From positions 372,001 through 436,000 of the forward strand of contig NZ_VWRN01000053.1 of the NCBI RefSeq assembly GCF_008632125.1: a DNA stretch of 64,000 nt, written 5' to 3'. Within the stretch, counting starts at the first letter, position 1. Each line of letters begins with the position of its first letter. Below, piece by piece: positions 1 through 6,603 of the stretch. The position numbers and the translations under genes were made by a program. This stretch comes from Cupriavidus cauae. Lineage in GTDB: Bacteria > Pseudomonadota > Gammaproteobacteria > Burkholderiales > Burkholderiaceae. The notes below the pieces were generated by a model. It saw only the letters and a list, made by a program, of their open reading frames with translations, was not told where the DNA came from and made no database searches.

Positions 1-328
1 TGAGGCTCACCCCCTGCTCGCCGGCACGCTTGCCCTTGGAGTAGGTGAAGGTGTCGGTCCACAGGTCGCCCATGCGGAAGCCAATCATCACCTTCTTCTC
101 GGCGTCGACCGCCTGAATGCAGCGGCGCACCAGGTGCTGCGCTTCCGAACCCGATACGCGCGTGTCGAAACGCACATACGAGACGTCGTCGCTGGGACCG
201 TTCAGGGCTGCGATGTCGCAGGCCAGGAACGCATCGCCTTTCTTGGGCTTCACTTCGCGGATGCGATTGAGGTACCCGAGGCCGGTGATGTGCAGATCGA
301 AGTAGGATTTTTCGTTGGAAGTGGTCAT
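1..328 (-). CDS. ICE protein, DUF3577 (STY4534) family, 3' end cut by window
   Basis: The first 109 codons of a minus-strand gene are present; the rest lies beyond position 1. The protein starts MTTSNEKSYFDLHITGLGYL and continues with a compact beta-rich segment matching the DUF3577/STY4534 family found in PFGI-1/clc-class ICEs. It resembles single-strand-binding-like small ICE proteins, but no function is established for the family. The ATG at 326-328 is preceded by an AGGAG-like site about 7 nt upstream. Upstream lies a 344-bp spacer with one copy of the two-hairpin leader element, so this gene appears to be its own transcription unit. Confidence 0.8.
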   Translation of the reverse strand, partial: MTTSNEKSYFDLHITGLGYLNRIREVKPKKGDAFLACDIAALNGPSDDVSYVRFDTRVSGSEAQHLVRRCIQAVDAEKKVMIGFRMGDLWTDTFTYSKGKRAGEQGVSL

Positions 329-493
329 GGTGAATCTCCTGGGAACAATGAGGCGGAGACACACCCGACCCAAGGCGGGGAAGGTGTGGAACCCCCGCGT
401 GGGTTGATGGAACAGCTTGGTGGCATCGCCATCGAGAACCGATGGCCGTTCGCGCATGGATGCCGGTGCGAACTGGGGTGATCAACGCGGTCG

Positions 494-562
494 GAACCGC
501 GTCGCAGCCTTGAAGATCGTGGCTGCCTGGGCATGTCGCTGACGGACGTCAGCGGAACATGG
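494..562 (-). repeat. Two-hairpin leader element, copy 1
   Basis: A 69-bp element that recurs at 2014-2082 and 3953-4021. Hairpin A pairs GCAGCC (504-509) with GGCTGC (521-526) around an 11-nt loop. Hairpin B pairs GCTGAC (538-543) with GTCAGC (548-553) around a tetraloop. The spacer between them contains CTGGGCATG. In the other two copies stem A is GCAGTC/GACTGC, so a C-G pair has become T-A with pairing kept. It lies 166 bp upstream of the DUF3577 start. Confidence 0.75.
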
Positions 563-641
563 CCGGAAGCGTGGCGCCGGGATGGCGCGCAGGCGAGCGG
601 CAATCGGCACTCGCGGCTGTCCACATTGCCGGGAAGAAAGA

Positions 642-660
642 GGCTCCCGGAGCGGGGGCC
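642..660 (-). terminator. Terminator-like hairpin after DUF3085 gene
   Basis: The stem is GGC.CCCG against CGGG.GCC with a 3-nt loop and one weak position. On the minus strand it is followed by TCTTTCTTCCC. It lies 12 nt beyond the stop codon. The purine tract on the plus strand (GAAGAAAGAG) resembles those beside the hairpins at 1068, 2158 and 3080. Confidence 0.5.
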
Positions 661-672
661 AGGGATGGGCGG

Positions 673-1038
673 TCAGCTACCGCTGGGCGTGGGAGGAACC
701 GCCTGCAGCGACAGGTGTGTCGTGGTAGCGGACACGTCGAGGTCGTCCTCGCTGCGCAGGATGCGCGCAAACACGCCCTCCTGCGGATCGAAGAACTCGC
801 CAAAGTCATCGCCGCCGAACTCGGCACGCGCCAGTTCCCACCAGTCGTCGAAGCCATCGACATCCGGGTTGCAGCCGGCGGCATAGGCGATGGTCTTCTG
901 GCGACCATCGGGTCGGCGCTCGCCGCGCTCGGCCAGGAAGTACACGCCCTGATCCTTGACCAGGATGACGCGGCATTGATTCGCCACCGCTTCGGCGAGC
1001 ACGGGCCGCAGCTCCGTGCCTTTGAATCGAACAGTCAT
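673..1038 (-). CDS. ICE protein, DUF3085 family
   Basis: A 121-aa protein starting MTVRFKGTELRPVLAEAV. It has the hallmarks of the DUF3085 family carried by clc/PAGI-2-type ICEs: a short N-terminal helix, then a stretch with repeated aromatic and acidic residues around DVDGFDDWWELARAEFGGDD. No catalytic motif is evident and no function is known for the family. A longer reading frame extends 33 codons upstream, but the ATG at 1036-1038 has a GGAG site 9 nt before it and matches the expected N-terminus. The gene is isolated by hairpins on both sides. Confidence 0.75.
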   Translation of the reverse strand: MTVRFKGTELRPVLAEAVANQCRVILVKDQGVYFLAERGERRPDGRQKTIAYAAGCNPDVDGFDDWWELARAEFGGDDFGEFFDPQEGVFARILRSEDDLDVSATTTHLSLQAVPPTPSGS

Positions 1039-1067
1039 GGGTGTGATCTCCAGGGGGCAGGAAAAGA

Positions 1068-1094
1068 AGCTTCCCGCCGCGAGGGCGGGAAGCT
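1068..1094 (-). terminator. Perfect 11-bp hairpin with T tract after the 265-aa ICE gene
   Basis: The arms 1068-1078 and 1084-1094 are perfectly complementary (AGCTTCCCGCC and its reverse complement) with a 5-nt loop. On the minus strand the hairpin is followed by TCTTTTCCTG. It lies 9 nt past the stop of the 265-aa gene and 30 nt before the DUF3085 start codon, so it can act as a terminator or as an attenuator of the next gene. Confidence 0.7.
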
Positions 1095-1103
1095 GCTGAG
1101 AGG

Positions 1104-1901
1104 TCAGTGCCGGACAGCCTTGCGACTCGACAGGCACTGCACGCGGATGCGCCTCCAGCTCCCGTCGTCAATCAGCCGTTCCAGCGTCTCGCCGAGGGTG
1201 TCGAAGAACACCTCATCGACCCGTTCGACCAGCTCGCCGTCGCGGCGCAGCTCCACCGCGTAGAGGTCGAGGCCACGCTCATACAGCACGGTGACGCGAC
1301 CCTGGAACTTCATCGTGTCGACGGTGAAGCCGATGGCCGGTGGCGTGCGGATGATGTCGGCAGGCAGCGGATCGACCCAGGTGATGTCCCGCGCACCGGC
1401 ATCCACCAACAGGTGGGTGATGCGCCGGAAACCATCGGGAGCGGGCAACTGCTCCAGTTGGACGATCAGTTCCTGCAGCTCGGGGCAGCGCGGCTCGGGG
1501 ATCGGCAGCTTCGCCGGTGCGGAACCGAGCACGAACCGCTTCACCGTGTAGGGCTGGCCGTCGGCGGTGAACTCGGTCTGCTCCTCGGGCGTGTCCGCCC
1601 GCTGACCGTCGAAGCGGCGTCTGACATAGGGTTCGACCTGCACCTTGGCGCCCTCGTCGGGCACTTCGGTCACGAGCGTACGATCGAGCACCGCGAACTC
1701 GGCTCGTCCCGTCTTGACGACGATGGCCTCGTCGGTGGTGGCGATGACCTTGCCCTCGAAAGGCTTCGGGTCGATGTGAAAGCCCAGCGTCGAAACCTTG
1801 GGCTGGCCGTCGAAGATGTTGAATTTGAACGAACGGACGTTGGAAGGCACATGACCGACAACGAGCGTCGGCATCTGTGCGCGGATGGCTTGGGTATCCA
1901 T
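1104..1901 (-). CDS. Conserved ICE hypothetical protein (265 aa)
   Basis: I do not recognise a named domain. The protein is 265 aa, acidic, and rich in beta-type sequence. It begins MDTQAIRAQMPTLVVGHVPS and has no signal peptide, membrane segment or cysteine motif. It sits in the block of single genes typical of clc/PAGI-2-like ICEs, between DUF5983 and DUF3085 genes. The ATG at 1899-1901 has an AAGGAG site 8 nt upstream, which decides against the much longer open frame. Leader copy 2 lies 113 bp upstream and a terminator-like hairpin follows, so it is probably transcribed alone. Confidence 0.65.
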   Translation of the reverse strand: MDTQAIRAQMPTLVVGHVPSNVRSFKFNIFDGQPKVSTLGFHIDPKPFEGKVIATTDEAIVVKTGRAEFAVLDRTLVTEVPDEGAKVQVEPYVRRRFDGQRADTPEEQTEFTADGQPYTVKRFVLGSAPAKLPIPEPRCPELQELIVQLEQLPAPDGFRRITHLLVDAGARDITWVDPLPADIIRTPPAIGFTVDTMKFQGRVTVLYERGLDLYAVELRRDGELVERVDEVFFDTLGETLERLIDDGSWRRIRVQCLSSRKAVRH

Positions 1902-2013
1902 GGGGAGACTCCTTGTGGCAACCAAGGGACTCCCGCCCGCAAGGGAGGTCTGTCCCTTGAGGGTGAGGTGGATGGACGCGGGTGCGCCCGGAGAACGAAG
2001 CAACCAGCACGGC

Positions 2014-2082
2014 GAACCGCGCCGCAGTCTTGAAGGTCTCGACTGCCTGGGCATGCTGCCGGCAACGCCAGCGAACATGCGG
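2014..2082 (-). repeat. Two-hairpin leader element, copy 2
   Basis: Stem A is GCAGTC (2024-2029) with GACTGC (2041-2046) and an 11-nt loop. Hairpin B (2055-2072) keeps GCTG/CAGC ends but has diverged inside, with one C.C mismatch. It lies in the 290-bp spacer upstream of the 265-aa gene. A small AAGGGA/TCCCTT hairpin at about 1942-1959 lies between it and the start codon. Confidence 0.7.
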
Positions 2083-2157
2083 CCAGCGTGCGGCACATGG
2101 CGGCGACCGTCCGTTGGGAATCGGCAATGCGCCGGCACCGCGTTCCGCGAAAAAGAA

Positions 2158-2177
2158 GAGCCCCGACGTGGGGGCTC
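2158..2177 (-). terminator. Terminator-like hairpin after DUF5983 gene
   Basis: A 7-bp stem GAGCCCC/GGGGCTC with a 6-nt loop. On the minus strand it is followed by TTCTTTTTCGC. It begins 14 nt past the stop codon at 2192 and shares the T-rich tail of the neighbouring ICE hairpins. Confidence 0.75.
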
Positions 2178-2191
2178 GAATGGGTTGCGGG

Positions 2192-2905
2192 TTACTCGTC
2201 GTCGTAGAGCGTCAGCCCGTCCAGCACGGGCGCGTCGGCATCGAACACCAACATGCGAACGTCGGCGAGCGCAGCCAGGTGCAACACTTCCACGAGGGAC
2301 TCCGGCACGCCCTTGGCCCGGTGCTCCTGCCGCAGCTCTTCGGCGGTGATGCCCTCGACATGCTGCAGGTTCGCATCCGTCCAGGGCGTGGCGATCAGCT
2401 TCACGCCGACCGCCGGGCTGTAGGGAATGCGGAAGGCCACGAACAGGAAACCGCTCGGCGTGGCGATGTCCGCCAGTTCGGCGAGGAAGCGACCGGCCTC
2501 CTCGGTGATGTGCGCCGAACTGATTTCCCAGGCACGGCTGTAGAACCCGGTCTCGAAGCGCAGGCGGCGTACCACCTCGCGCGCGGCTTCCTCGGAGTAG
2601 GTATCGCCGACGTGCAGCGGCTGGCCGGCTTCTTCGGCCATGACGGCGTAGACGAGGTTTCGGGCGATACCGTGGCTGGGGCACTGCGCGTCCAGCTCGG
2701 GCGGCACGTTCTGGCCCTCGGTGATCAGCGCGAAGTCGTCGCAGAAGACGCAGGCATGGCGCTCGACCTGGCTGTCCGGCAGGTGCGACTGCGAGACGTG
2801 CAGCGGCAGATAGCTCAGCGGGCAGTCGTCGTAGGAAATCGCCAGCAGCCGCTGCACGGACAGGCCATCGTAGCCGCGGGCGAAGGGATTGTTGGAATGG
2901 GACAT
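2192..2905 (-). CDS. ICE protein, DUF5983 family
   Basis: A 237-aa protein starting MSHSNNPFARGYDGLSVQRL. It matches the DUF5983 family of ICE proteins, which databases have sometimes mislabelled as ABC transporter substrate-binding proteins; there is no signal peptide here to support that. Residues 50-56 hold a CVFCDDF segment. No enzyme motif is visible. The start at 2903-2905 has a GGAGGA-type site. Just upstream, 2928-2956 contains an AATCCCC/GGGGATT inverted repeat. The gene stands alone between two hairpins. Confidence 0.75.
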   Translation of the reverse strand: MSHSNNPFARGYDGLSVQRLLAISYDDCPLSYLPLHVSQSHLPDSQVERHACVFCDDFALITEGQNVPPELDAQCPSHGIARNLVYAVMAEEAGQPLHVGDTYSEEAAREVVRRLRFETGFYSRAWEISSAHITEEAGRFLAELADIATPSGFLFVAFRIPYSPAVGVKLIATPWTDANLQHVEGITAEELRQEHRAKGVPESLVEVLHLAALADVRMLVFDADAPVLDGLTLYDDE

Positions 2906-3079
2906 GGGATTCCTCCAGCAGAGGATGGCCGAGGCAATCCCCTGCCGGGGATTGAACCCCAGCGAGTGGATGAAGTGGCAACCGGTTAGCCGGCCGCGGC
3001 GTCGGGCCGCCCTGGTGGCGGGCGGTGCAGGTCAGTGGAAGATGGTGATTCGGGACATGGCCGCTCCTGCGAAAAGAAG

Positions 3080-3115
3080 GAGGGACATGGCCCCGAACGA
3101 GGACGCATGTCCCTC
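3080..3115 (-). terminator. Terminator-like hairpin after the 130-aa ICE gene
   Basis: Perfect 10-bp arms GAGGGACATG (3080-3089) and CATGTCCCTC (3106-3115) enclose a 16-nt loop. On the minus strand the hairpin is followed by CTTCTTTTCGC. It lies 40 nt past the stop codon at 3156 and upstream of DUF5983. Confidence 0.7.
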
Positions 3116-3155
3116 GTGGGGTGGGATGAAAAGACGGTGGGTTGCCAGGCGCGGC

Positions 3156-3548
3156 TCACCAGCCGTTGTAGTGCAGCGTGAGGTCAGCGATGACCTGGCG
3201 CCGTTCCAGATCGAGGCCGCCGAAGTCGGACAGCCCCTCGAAGCCGCAACGCTTGAGCATCGCGCCGCCCTCGCGGGAGTTGTAGAAGCTCACCATCGCG
3301 GACAGGAACATGCGTTGACCGCTGCTCAGCACGCCCAGGGCGTCGTTGAGCATCAGCATGTTGGGCCGCAGGTCCCACTTGGTGGTGGCACGCTGCAGAC
3401 CTTCGCGTGTGCCGTCGCCGAACCACTCGTGGCCGGCGATCTGCGCGCCGCGCTTCCAGGCCTCGAAGAAGGCCTGCGGTGCAGCGTCGAAGTGCGCCTG
3501 TTCCAGCGCCATCTGATCGAGCACGTCTTCGGGTAAAGACAGATTCAT
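3156..3548 (-). CDS. Conserved ICE hypothetical protein (130 aa)
   Basis: A 130-aa, mostly alpha-helical protein starting MNLSLPEDVLDQMALEQAHF. I do not recognise a domain. The ATG at 3546-3548 has AAGGAG 8 nt upstream, which places the start 18 codons inside a longer open frame. It begins 26 bp after the stop of the 78-aa gene with no hairpin between them, so these two are probably cotranscribed. This is the only such pair in this block. Confidence 0.65.
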   Translation of the reverse strand: MNLSLPEDVLDQMALEQAHFDAAPQAFFEAWKRGAQIAGHEWFGDGTREGLQRATTKWDLRPNMLMLNDALGVLSSGQRMFLSAMVSFYNSREGGAMLKRCGFEGLSDFGGLDLERRQVIADLTLHYNGW

Positions 3549-3573
3549 GAGAGAACTCCTTGAAGGGTGGGAA

Positions 3574-3810
3574 TCAGGGGTGAGCGCGCTGTGTCCAGGC
3601 ATGGGTATCCAGGGCGCGCTGTGCTGCGAGGTGGGTCGGGAAATACTCGACGGACTCCCGCGATACCGGTCCTTCGTCGTCTTGTGTGCCGATGTAGTGG
3701 CCGGCCGCGCTGCGCAGCACCTGTAGCGGCAAACGCTTGCCGGTCCAGGTCAGCGCCAGCGCACCACTGCGCACTGCGGTTGCAGAGGAAGATGCGGAAG
3801 GTTCAGACAT
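3574..3810 (-). CDS. Small ICE hypothetical protein (78 aa)
   Basis: A 78-aa protein starting MSEPSASSSATAVRSGALAL. It has a Ser/Ala-rich N-terminus and a folded segment around TWTGKRLPLQVLRSAAGHYI. No known family is recognised. The ATG at 3808-3810 has AAGGAGC 7 nt upstream. It is the first gene after leader copy 3 and is followed 26 bp later by the 130-aa gene. Confidence 0.6.
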   Translation of the reverse strand: MSEPSASSSATAVRSGALALTWTGKRLPLQVLRSAAGHYIGTQDDEGPVSRESVEYFPTHLAAQRALDTHAWTQRAHP

Positions 3811-4587
3811 GCCGTGCTCCTTGGTGGGTCGGGGAGCACGCATCCCGCAGGGGATGGGGTTCCCCTCGGGTGGTTGAGAAAAGTGCATCGTCGCCAGGCC
3901 GGCGAGCGTCCGCGGTGGGCGATGCGAAGCGGACTGGATCGGTCGACGCGGCGAACCGCGTTGCAGTCTTGAAGACCGGGACTGCCAGGGCATGCCGCTG
4001 ACGACTGTCAGCAACGCATGGCGTGAGGATGGGCGCGCAGCATGGCTGTCGTCGCAAGGAAAACCGAATCGCGGACGGCCCGCTTTAGGCAGGCCCGCGT
4101 CACGGGACAAGGCAAGGACCAGGGCGCCGAAGGCCACGCGGACCTTCGGCTGGAGAGGAAGGAAAACCACCTGTGGGCTGCGTCAGCGCGGGCCGTCGTC
4201 AAAGCCGTTCGCTGCGTCAGCAATCGCACCCGGCCCGTTTCGTGGCTGGGGCCGGAAACCTTTGGCACGCATACGCGCACAAAGGGAGCCCGTTGTTCCG
4301 CCGGCGGGCACCGGCACGGAATACCCTCAGCCCAAGGGGCCTCCTCACGGCTCGCGCGGCGGCAAGGCGTCAGGAAGCCCCTCATGACGGAGGCAAGGCA
4401 CACCGATCAAGGGAATGGCGGCGGGCGCGATTCGTGGAGCAATGACCTTCTCGCCCGTCGCCCGATGGCGGGCAGACGGGGCGCGCACACCGTTGCAGAA
4501 GGAGACGCGCGCTTTGGAGTCCCGCGCGGTGCGGGACGTTTGCCTCGCCGCCAGTGAAGTGGCCGGCGCGGCAGGGGGAAGCGAGGA
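3811..4587. other. 777-bp spacer rich in hairpins, no gene
   Basis: I see no plausible gene on either strand. From right to left (minus-strand order after topB) it holds a 7-bp GTCCCGC/GCGGGAC hairpin (4519-4537), a CCCGTC/GACGGG hairpin with an inner GCCC/GGGC stem (about 4457-4483), an 8-bp GCCGAAGG/CCTTCGGC hairpin (4126-4150), leader copy 3 (3953-4021), and a GGGGA/TCCCC-rich block (about 3840-3870) just before the 78-aa gene. It probably contains the end of the topB transcript and the promoter and leader of the 78-aa gene. Confidence 0.5.
3953..4021 (-). repeat. Two-hairpin leader element, copy 3
   Basis: Stem A is GCAGTC (3963-3968) with GACTGC (3980-3985) and an 11-nt loop. Stem B is GCTGAC (3997-4002) with GTCAGC (4007-4012) and a tetraloop GACT, where copy 1 has GGAC. 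It lies 143 bp upstream of the 78-aa gene start. Confidence 0.75.
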
Positions 4588-6603
4588 TCAGGACACCTTG
4601 GAGGCAGCGCGCCGCTTGCGCGGTGCGCTGCGCCGGCCCGTCGGGGACTCGATCGGCAACGTGCCCTTGCAGTCCGGGTAGCGCGAGCAGGACCAGAACG
4701 CGCCGCTCTTGCCCGTGCGCTGCTGCATCGGTGCGCCGCACTGCGGGCAGGCCGGCGCCGGCGGCAGCTTGAGCGAGAGCGTTGCGCCGCGATACTGCTG
4801 CACGAGCTGGCCGACCCACACGGACTGCTTCTCGATGAAGGTGTCCAGCGCCATCTGGCCGGCCTCGATCATGTCGAGCGCCTGCTCCCACACCGCCGTG
4901 GTGCCGGGGTCGGCGATGGCCGAGGGCACCGCGTCGATGAGCGTGAATGCCGCGTCGGAAGCGCGGACGGCGCGGCCTTTCTTGACCAGGTAGCCGCGAC
5001 CGATCAGACCGTTGATGATGTTGGCGCGTGTCGCCTCGGTGCCGATGCCGGTGGTATCGCGCAGCTTCTGTTTCAGGCGCGGGTCGGTCACGAACTTGGC
5101 GACGGTCTTCATGGCCTTGATCAGCTCGCCCTGCGTGTAGGGTTTGGGCGGCAGCGTCTTCAGCGCCTTGAGATCCACCTTTCCGACCGGGCAGGACAGG
5201 CCCGCATGCAGGGCGGGCAGCACCTGGCTGCGCTGCGCATCCTCGCCACCGGCATCGTCCGGCCCCGGCGTCGCCAGCACCTCACGCCAGCCGATGACGG
5301 CGATCTGCTTGCCCACGGCCACCAGCGACTGACTGCCGCACGAGAACTGCGCCACCGTCCGGTCGAACTCATGGTGCGGGAGGAACTGCGCGAGGTAATG
5401 GGCGCGGATCAGCCGGTAGACGGCCAGCTCCTTCTCGTTCATGGCCGACAGGTTGGCGGGCTCCAGCGTCGGGATGATGCCGTGGTGAGCCGATACCTTG
5501 CCGTCGTTCCACGCACGCGAACGCTGTTGGCGATCCAGGCGCTCGATCAGCGGCCGCAGGCTGGGGTCGGTCTTGACCAGGCTGTCGAGTACGGTCGGCA
5601 CCTCGGCCAGCATGCTCTCGGGCAGGTAGCCCGAATCGGAGCGCGGGTACGTTGTCGCCTTGTGCGTCTCGTACAGCGCCTGGGCAATGTCCAGCGTCTC
5701 CTGCACGTCGAGGCCCAACTGCTTGGAGCACACCTCCTGCAGCGTGCCCAGGTCGAACGGCAGCGGCGGTGCCTCGCGCACGCGCTCGGTGTCCACTGAC
5801 ACGACCTGCGCATCGCGTGCGGCGCGAATGCAATCCGCAGCCTGCTGCGCCACCGGCTGCTGAAGGCAGCGACCCGCTGCATCCGTGCTGCCTTCGGGCG
5901 GTATCCAGCTCGCGGTGAAGGACCGGCCGGCATGGGATAGCAGCACGTCCACGGCCCAATACGGCACAGAGACGAAGCGCGCGATCTCGCGATCACGATC
6001 CACCACCAACTTCAGCGTCGGCGTCTGCACGCGCCCCACCGACAGCACGCCGGTGTAGCCGGCCTGCCGACCTAGAAGCGTAAACAGCCGGCTCAGGTTC
6101 ATGCCGATCAGCCAGTCGGCACGCGAGCGGGCCAGGGCCGAGTAGTACAGCGGCAGCGTCTCGGCGGACGGCTTGAGCGCACCCAGCGCCTTGCGGATGG
6201 ACGCATCGTTGAGCGCCGACAGCCACAGACGCTGAATCGGCCCGCAGTAGCCGCATAGCTCGATGATCTCACGGGCGATCATCTCGCCCTCGCGGTCGGC
6301 GTCGGTCGCAATCACCAGCTCGCCCGCCTTGGCGACGAGCTGCTGCACGACCTTGAATTGCGCTGCGGTCGCCGCCTTGGGCTCGACACGCCAACGCTCA
6401 GGAAGAATGGGCAGTTGCTCGATGGCCCAGCGCTTGTATTGCTCACCGTAGCCTTCGGGTGGAACCGCCTCCACCAGATGACCGATGCACCAGGTCACGA
6501 CGACACCCGCGCCGCTGTAGCAGCCATTACCGCGTTGACTGGCACCCAGCACACGGGCGATGTCCTTGCCCTGGGACGGCTTCTCGCACAGGAACACGCG
6601 CAT
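4588..6603 (-). CDS. topB: DNA topoisomerase III (ICE-borne)
   Basis: A 671-aa type IA topoisomerase, which cuts one DNA strand through a tyrosine and passes the other. The N-terminal Toprim domain has E7 and the DADRE acidic triad at 101-105. The active-site Tyr is at about 319 in TTYPRSDSGY. The tail (about 620-671) has a CPQCG...CSRYPDC zinc finger and a basic end. Length and layout match TopB proteins carried by clc/PAGI-2-type ICEs, where they probably resolve replicating or transferring DNA. The start has AAGGAGG 5 nt upstream. A 294-bp spacer with a 17-bp palindrome separates it from ssb, so it may have its own promoter. Confidence 0.95.
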   Translation of the reverse strand: MRVFLCEKPSQGKDIARVLGASQRGNGCYSGAGVVVTWCIGHLVEAVPPEGYGEQYKRWAIEQLPILPERWRVEPKAATAAQFKVVQQLVAKAGELVIATDADREGEMIAREIIELCGYCGPIQRLWLSALNDASIRKALGALKPSAETLPLYYSALARSRADWLIGMNLSRLFTLLGRQAGYTGVLSVGRVQTPTLKLVVDRDREIARFVSVPYWAVDVLLSHAGRSFTASWIPPEGSTDAAGRCLQQPVAQQAADCIRAARDAQVVSVDTERVREAPPLPFDLGTLQEVCSKQLGLDVQETLDIAQALYETHKATTYPRSDSGYLPESMLAEVPTVLDSLVKTDPSLRPLIERLDRQQRSRAWNDGKVSAHHGIIPTLEPANLSAMNEKELAVYRLIRAHYLAQFLPHHEFDRTVAQFSCGSQSLVAVGKQIAVIGWREVLATPGPDDAGGEDAQRSQVLPALHAGLSCPVGKVDLKALKTLPPKPYTQGELIKAMKTVAKFVTDPRLKQKLRDTTGIGTEATRANIINGLIGRGYLVKKGRAVRASDAAFTLIDAVPSAIADPGTTAVWEQALDMIEAGQMALDTFIEKQSVWVGQLVQQYRGATLSLKLPPAPACPQCGAPMQQRTGKSGAFWSCSRYPDCKGTLPIESPTGRRSAPRKRRAASKVS

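Follow-up and report, generated by a model that had tools for sequence, protein, structure and literature searches.

radC RNA copies ahead of integrative and conjugative element genes of Cupriavidus cauae and a probable riboswitch-like translational switch in their leaders

radC RNA copies and the genes behind them

A 64,000-nucleotide stretch of Cupriavidus cauae DNA (RefSeq assembly GCF_008632125.1, contig NZ_VWRN01000053.1, positions 372,001 to 436,000 of the forward strand; hereafter the window) carries three copies of a structured element in the leaders of genes of an integrative and conjugative element (ICE). All three copies were matched on the minus strand by the Rfam family RF01754, the radC RNA, over model positions 1 to 149. 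The scores were 131.1 bits for copy 1, 119.1 for copy 3 and 100.2 for copy 2 (E-values of 7e-25, 3.8e-22 and 7.3e-18). A fourth copy, scoring 87.7 bits, lies outside the window on the same strand, 4.6 kb to the left (contig 367284-367428). Over the full model, the window copies and the fourth copy all exceeded the gathering score of 40 bits. An earlier note on this DNA had taken the element to be undescribed, which was mistaken, since the radC RNA was reported by Weinberg et al. (2010; PMC2864571).

The 69-bp layout that the earlier note had placed at 494-562, 2014-2082 and 3953-4021 was borne out by direct reading, as was the compensatory change in stem A. This stem is GCAGCC/GGCTGC in copy 1 (504-526) and GCAGTC/GACTGC in copies 2 and 3 (2024-2046 and 3963-3985), each time with an 11-nt loop. 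Stem B was correctly given as GCTGAC/GTCAGC in copies 1 and 3, and copy 2 also retains it (minus strand GCTGGC/GCCGGC, with one G-U). With up to three mismatches, the stem-A pattern occurred at three places in the window only (0.43 expected); as the pattern was derived from the copies themselves, the Rfam match is the independent test. The element is about 149 nt long rather than 69, with the minus strand acting, and a third hairpin (CGCGG-UUCG-CCGCG) and a 3' domain are further parts of it. The two-hairpin picture thus gave way to three hairpins, two pseudoknots and a switch beside the start codon.

Copy 1 spans 423-571 (minus strand; 131.4 bits with the R1 model) and precedes a gene of the DUF3577/STY4534 family, which starts at 328 on the minus strand and continues past the window edge. 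Copy 2 spans 1933-2089 (minus strand), and R1 places it at 1945-2089 with 98.1 bits; it diverges in its 3' part, which overlaps the switch. The gene behind it (1104-1901, minus strand) encodes a 265-amino-acid (aa) protein with weak similarity to the KfrB domain (Pfam E = 0.0011; 19.3 bits, under the cut-off of 25). Copy 3 (3885-4030, minus strand; 120.9 bits with R1) is the leader of a 78-aa gene without family match (3574-3810, minus strand). Counted to the first start-codon base, the element lies 166, 113 and 143 bp from the starts at 328, 1901 and 3810, in agreement with the range of 113-166 bp given before. A terminator-like hairpin lies just 5' of the copy 2 leader (2158-2177, minus strand), according to a consensus scan.

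Conserved fold and acting strand

The search model, which has 34 nested pairs, was built on 45 sequences and gathered 144 sequences, 125 of them distinct; for A2, the 71 first loci had been reduced to 45. Two crossing helices, absent from the Rfam model as printed and from the search model, were then added. With these included, 92.3% of the cells were paired over the 125 distinct sequences, and 40 of the 44 pairs showed changes on both sides. The added pseudoknot helices alone were paired in 91.3% of the cells and contained 131 double-change cells, compared with 33.8 in shuffles, while slid versions of the same helices, used as a control, were just 21-43% paired. In a later set of 49 distinct sequences the pseudoknots were 99.6% paired, with 102 double changes versus 37.2. 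In PK1 (97.4% paired) the loop of stem A pairs with bases 3' of hairpin 3, and P4 (87.3% paired) crosses P5 within the 3' domain. Pairing is thus kept across relatives and covaries, which supports the earlier claim of a selected structure in the leaders of several ICE genes. The arrangement is that of a translational riboswitch in so far as a conserved structured domain occupies the 5' leader, whose transcription start is a presumed one. In a list contained in PMC7657543, radC stands among the families whose database structure lacks covarying pairs. That pairs are missing there was already known; the present ones were assigned independently of those of that work. A mini open reading frame (ORF) in P1, not conserved as judged by eye, was set aside.

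On the sense strand, 276 G-U and 127 A-C cells were counted, where shuffles expect 573 and 443; within PK1 the numbers were 29 and 6. A wobble pair of the template strand would appear as A-C, so that the G-U excess favours an RNA. Folding of the isolated elements gave z-scores of -4.1, -2.2 and -2.0 for the minus strand and -3.8, +0.6 and -4.6 for the plus strand, so that single-sequence folding does not separate the strands. The earlier note had offered an RNA leader or a protein-binding hairpin, and only its first half stood: an RNA on the sense strand is indicated, and a protein-binding DNA hairpin is disfavoured.

The acting strand bears on a single-stranded DNA promoter of the Frpo type, by which an incoming strand would be transcribed before second-strand synthesis. 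The gene content is akin to early DNA-processing genes, and hairpins ahead of conjugative-element genes are described in part of PMC11541004. It is nevertheless the sense strand that folds and not the template, and promoter-like elements, where found, are upstream of the fold rather than inside it. Moreover, a sigma-70 scan of window positions 1-4700 found no promoter, and radC-gene copies within operons have the RNA but no promoter-like elements. Promoter elements in the fold and folding of the template strand, by which Frpo and ssi promoters are recognized, were both absent, and this reading is disfavoured to the point of being extremely improbable. A terminator scan of the same positions gave 5 sites against 3.0 expected.

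Among 96 non-redundant upstream sequences, 28 showed a TTGAC-like hexamer about 20 nt ahead of the RNA, a spacing that, where the hexamer exists, would place the transcription start near P1. Another 38 matched, by a half-site, an inverted repeat (AATGCGG-N-TGCCGATT type). The remaining 30 fitted neither rule; they include 11 RadC-gene copies located after a coding end and about ten sequences with repeat variants recognized by eye. The repeat is conserved, its centre lying about 42 bp before the RNA, and the window copies belong to the repeat type (upstream parts of the leaders at about 467-630, 1985-2145 and 3926-4090). It is a candidate activator box. Parts of the ICEclc work describe a 27-bp motif common to eight of nine bimodal promoters. 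The upstream repeat has about this length and may correspond to that motif, a comparison made by length and not by letters.

With the topoisomerase ORF91884 and the SSB ORF94175 as coordinate anchors in ICEclc, the 265-aa gene is probably ORF88400 and the gene of the fourth copy approximately ORF81655, both behind bimodal promoters. ICEclc itself was sought by ORF spacing among 80 SSB loci with no match, and these links therefore rest on the topoisomerase and SSB offsets. On this basis two of the four leaders probably match the bimodal promoters P88400 and P81655 of the ICEclc work, which would suit a double-stranded operator for BisDC, the FlhDC-like activator of clc-family ICEs, with the stems as its dyad symmetry. 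Against such an operator, the separate repeat upstream of the RNA is a better candidate for it, and the crossing helices, the wobble asymmetry and the promoter-free copies point to an RNA. A BisDC operator within the stems was accordingly judged very improbable. The same work notes, in the parts dealing with P81655, that this promoter had the highest read coverage yet ordinary reporter output, and suggests post-transcriptional control. A self-cleaving ribozyme was also considered, in view of the tandem pseudoknots and of the transcript processing reported for ICEclc.

Alternative pairings at the Shine-Dalgarno sequence

Between the conserved RNA and the start codon, four segments were found that can pair in two mutually exclusive ways. 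When segment 1 pairs with segment 2, segment 3 is left to mask the Shine-Dalgarno (SD) sequence (OFF); when segment 1 pairs with segment 3, the SD sequence is left free (ON). The switch of copy 1 spans 334-398 (minus strand), with segment 1 GCGGGGGT at 398-391, segment 2 TCCCCGC at 381-375, segment 3 GTCTCCGC at 360-353 and the SD segment GGAGAT at 339-334; it was detected by script in the near-identical leaders L124, L081 and L146, and the window copy was folded. The switch of copy 2 (1911-1959, minus strand) was assigned by eye and folded, and the script detects it in the relative L047; its segments are CAAGGGAC (1959-1952), TCCCTTG (1946-1940), GTCCCTTG (1930-1923) and CAAGG (1915-1911). 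For copy 3 (3813-3866, minus strand), both the script, applied to the leader at window 3885-4030, and folding identified AGGGGA (3866-3861), TCCCCT (3854-3849), CGTGCTCC(CC) (3840-3831) and the SD segment GGAGCACG (3820-3813). When copy 1 was folded under constraint, what had been taken for a third pseudoknot near the start codon turned out to lengthen the ON helix.

The comparison was extended to 73 non-redundant leaders, obtained from 242 gene-led hits. Other ORF starts of the same loci, chosen by script and possibly including some false genes, were used as controls, together with 146 shuffles that preserve the SD region. The SD core paired with upstream sequence with a mean probability of 0.82 in the 73 leaders and 0.41 at 381 control starts, and an anti-SD helix scoring at least 14 was present in 44 of the former and 40 of the latter. 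At minimum helix scores of 10, 12 and 14, the full switch was found in 55, 38 and 31 of the 73 leaders, in 56, 20 and 9 of 378 control ORF starts and in 52, 14 and 0 of the shuffles. A later set was collected via model R1 and comprised 51 hits, from which 17 without gene and 14 redundant ones were removed. The 20 leaders kept gave 16, 12 and 9 at the same thresholds, which had been chosen without this set; it comes from the same genus as many of the first loci plus two plasmids and is not fully independent. With annotated starts on three plasmid stretches, 7, 5 and 3 of 7 radC-led genes scored, against 12, 5 and 2 of 26 others; six of the seven radC-led genes also belong to the later leader set.

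For the pairing tests, 52 of the 73 leaders entered the first and 50 the later two. Over 50 leaders, segment 1 paired with its own anti-SD arm at -12.0 kcal/mol and with the arms of others at -10.0 kcal/mol, after 1:2 pairs had been taken out. None of 10,000 permutations was as strong, also inside G+C strata, and when one leader was drawn from each of 9 gene families, the preference held in 500 of 500 draws. Examples of the 1:3 pairing are GCGGGGGT/GTCTCCGC (the copy 1 type), GCGGGGAATC/GGTTCTCCGC and GGAGGGC/GCCCTCC, and among the later leaders TGACGGAGAC/GTCTCCGTCA. By comparison, then, helices that exclude each other at the SD sequence, the hallmark of a riboswitch platform, are present in many leaders, though not in every one.

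Each of the three window leaders has OFF as its minimum-energy fold. This strong in-silico preference would suit a static structured leader, in which the RNA protects or processes the message, the SD hairpin merely lowers translation and nothing is sensed. Sections of the ICEclc work lend it some further weight, as they report that ahead of ORFs 73676, 84835 and 89247 transcripts are processed and reads change in steps, with no promoter activity there. A static leader, however, needs no second pairing, yet two mutually exclusive pairings persist through sequence change, and double pseudoknots exceed the needs of a stability hairpin; it was thus considered unlikely.

A similar SD-pairing hairpin was seen by eye in the leader of the 237-aa gene (2192-2905; leader at window 2906-2960, minus strand), where there is no radC RNA. 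Such a platform may therefore not be exclusive to radC leaders.

Distribution, proposed mechanism and known systems

The radC RNA was found in 6 of 398 genomes sampled across the phylum, the source genome included (3 of 212 genera), in 11 of 60 genomes of the genus of the host and in 222 of 398 sampled genomes of another genus; the counts per genome are bounded by the candidates scored (7 to 42). In a blastn search with copy 1, at least 8 of 72,556 plasmids matched and no E. coli genome did, within the sensitivity of blastn and of one query copy. Many ICE loci have comparable leader sets behind the SSB gene. When the 80 best of 388 relatives were taken as SSB-gene neighbourhoods, 70 held at least one match, always on the strand of the SSB gene, and 8 of the 10 loci without match end less than 2 kb from that gene. 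A start with SD sequence followed within 260 nt, in sense orientation, in 242 of 255 hits, leaving 13 without gene by this rule; in the later set this was so for 34 of 51.

The biggest downstream groups, each named from one representative, were the DUF3577/STY4534-family ICE replication protein of copy 1 (66), the 78-aa protein of copy 3 (63), the 265-aa protein of copy 2 (54) and RadC (21). The smaller ones had 12, 10, 5, 5 (the 216-aa protein of the fourth copy), 3, 1, 1 and 1 members. On an annotated plasmid, the 3' end of a thioredoxin-domain gene in a conjugation operon is overlapped by a RadC-gene copy of the RNA (L161 4969-5119), and stretches of two other plasmids hold three radC RNA copies each.

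In Pseudomonas islands (L206 9360-9503, minus strand; L207 5985-6128, plus strand) a tmRNA gene and one radC RNA were observed, with about 550 nt to the next SD-led ORF. This stretch shows 95% column identity across seven species and is possibly a long noncoding RNA. L206 has a recombinase-like ORF beside the tmRNA gene, and L207 additionally carries a C4 antisense RNA.

The simplest reading of a conserved leader domain with a covarying, mutually exclusive SD switch behind it is a translational regulator of the riboswitch type. We propose that each copy is a radC RNA leading an ICE gene, with hairpin P1 and the two H-type pseudoknots as sensor and the stretch from there to the start codon as a bistable expression platform. 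At rest, segments 1 and 2 would pair, as would segment 3 and the SD sequence, and translation would be off; in the other state, segment 1 would take segment 3 and the ribosome-binding site would become free. The trigger could be a metabolite, an ICE protein or an RNA. As judged from sequence comparison, the element is probably such a switch, which acts in cis on translation in the manner of a riboswitch and recurs before several ICE genes. Family membership, the pseudoknots, the acting strand, SD sequestration and the exclusive pairings are what the comparison shows; coupling of sensor and switch, the sign of control and one signal for all copies are inferred. That one element coordinates dispersed ICE genes, as the earlier note had it, is plausible, though unproven.

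Several observations speak against the proposed switch. The ON fold is weaker than OFF by 11.1, 8.6 and 9.5 kcal/mol in the window leaders (computed without pseudoknots), so that a trigger would need to pay 8.6-11.1 kcal/mol or act during transcription. The script fails in 18 of the 73 leaders, including the fourth copy and four other leaders of the 265-aa type or related to it, and misses the copy 2 switch in three other copies of the 265-aa gene type. The loose threshold of 10 separates poorly, as is seen from the shuffles (52/146), the controls (56/378) and the annotated starts (7/7 against 12/26). An earlier contrast of -22.1 versus -17.1 kcal/mol was partly due to the 1:2 pairs. One slid control has 9 double-change pairs and the real helices 8, and the wobble asymmetry of P4 is slight (G-U 11, A-C 7). 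Finally, 9 of 9 examined loci of one Pseudomonas island type show a gap of about 550 nt between the RNA and the next ORF, and no switch was seen nearby.

Concerning the trigger, the RNA could serve one RNA-binding protein of the ICE, autogenous or shared, as a translational operator instead of being a small-molecule riboswitch. This is the proposed explanation with the kind of trigger named, and it was regarded as a tentative possibility. Among the elements examined, the RNA is confined to mobile ones, always before element genes and in several copies per element; the same RNA, however, precedes unrelated genes on different element kinds, and all of them would need to share the protein. It is somewhat doubtful that the radC RNA is an orphan riboswitch class, in which one small-molecule signal, received by the double-pseudoknot sensor, would open translation of several DNA-processing genes of ICEs and related plasmids together. 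If true, it would add a translational layer on top of the bistable switch already known for transcription in clc-type ICEs.

No assigned function of the radC RNA was found in the literature under its motif names or RF01754, and no description of the SD switch in that on the radC RNA and, going by the titles listed only, on ICE riboswitches. A table of PMC2864571 grades radC 'Y' as an RNA, 'y' as cis-regulatory and '?' as a switch. The radC RNA is common and is carried by elements that disseminate adaptive genes. Since the sensor-plus-switch model names the bases involved, it can be tested. If the model is true, transfer genes of a large ICE family would be under translational control by a shared signal.

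In translational riboswitches, helices that exclude each other lie behind a conserved domain and either cover the SD sequence or leave it accessible. The leaders studied here have the same order of parts; they differ in that the genes behind the radC RNA belong to mobile elements and not to one metabolic pathway, and in that any ligand is putative. With the radC RNA as catalogued in RF01754 they share the passing of the gathering score over the full model, the leader position and the occurrence in Proteobacteria, whereas the Rfam model as printed is without the two pseudoknots and the SD switch. The Frpo and ssi promoters, as presented in part of PMC11541004, are likewise repeated structured elements ahead of conjugative-element genes, but the radC RNA folds on the sense strand and its promoter-like elements are located outside the fold.

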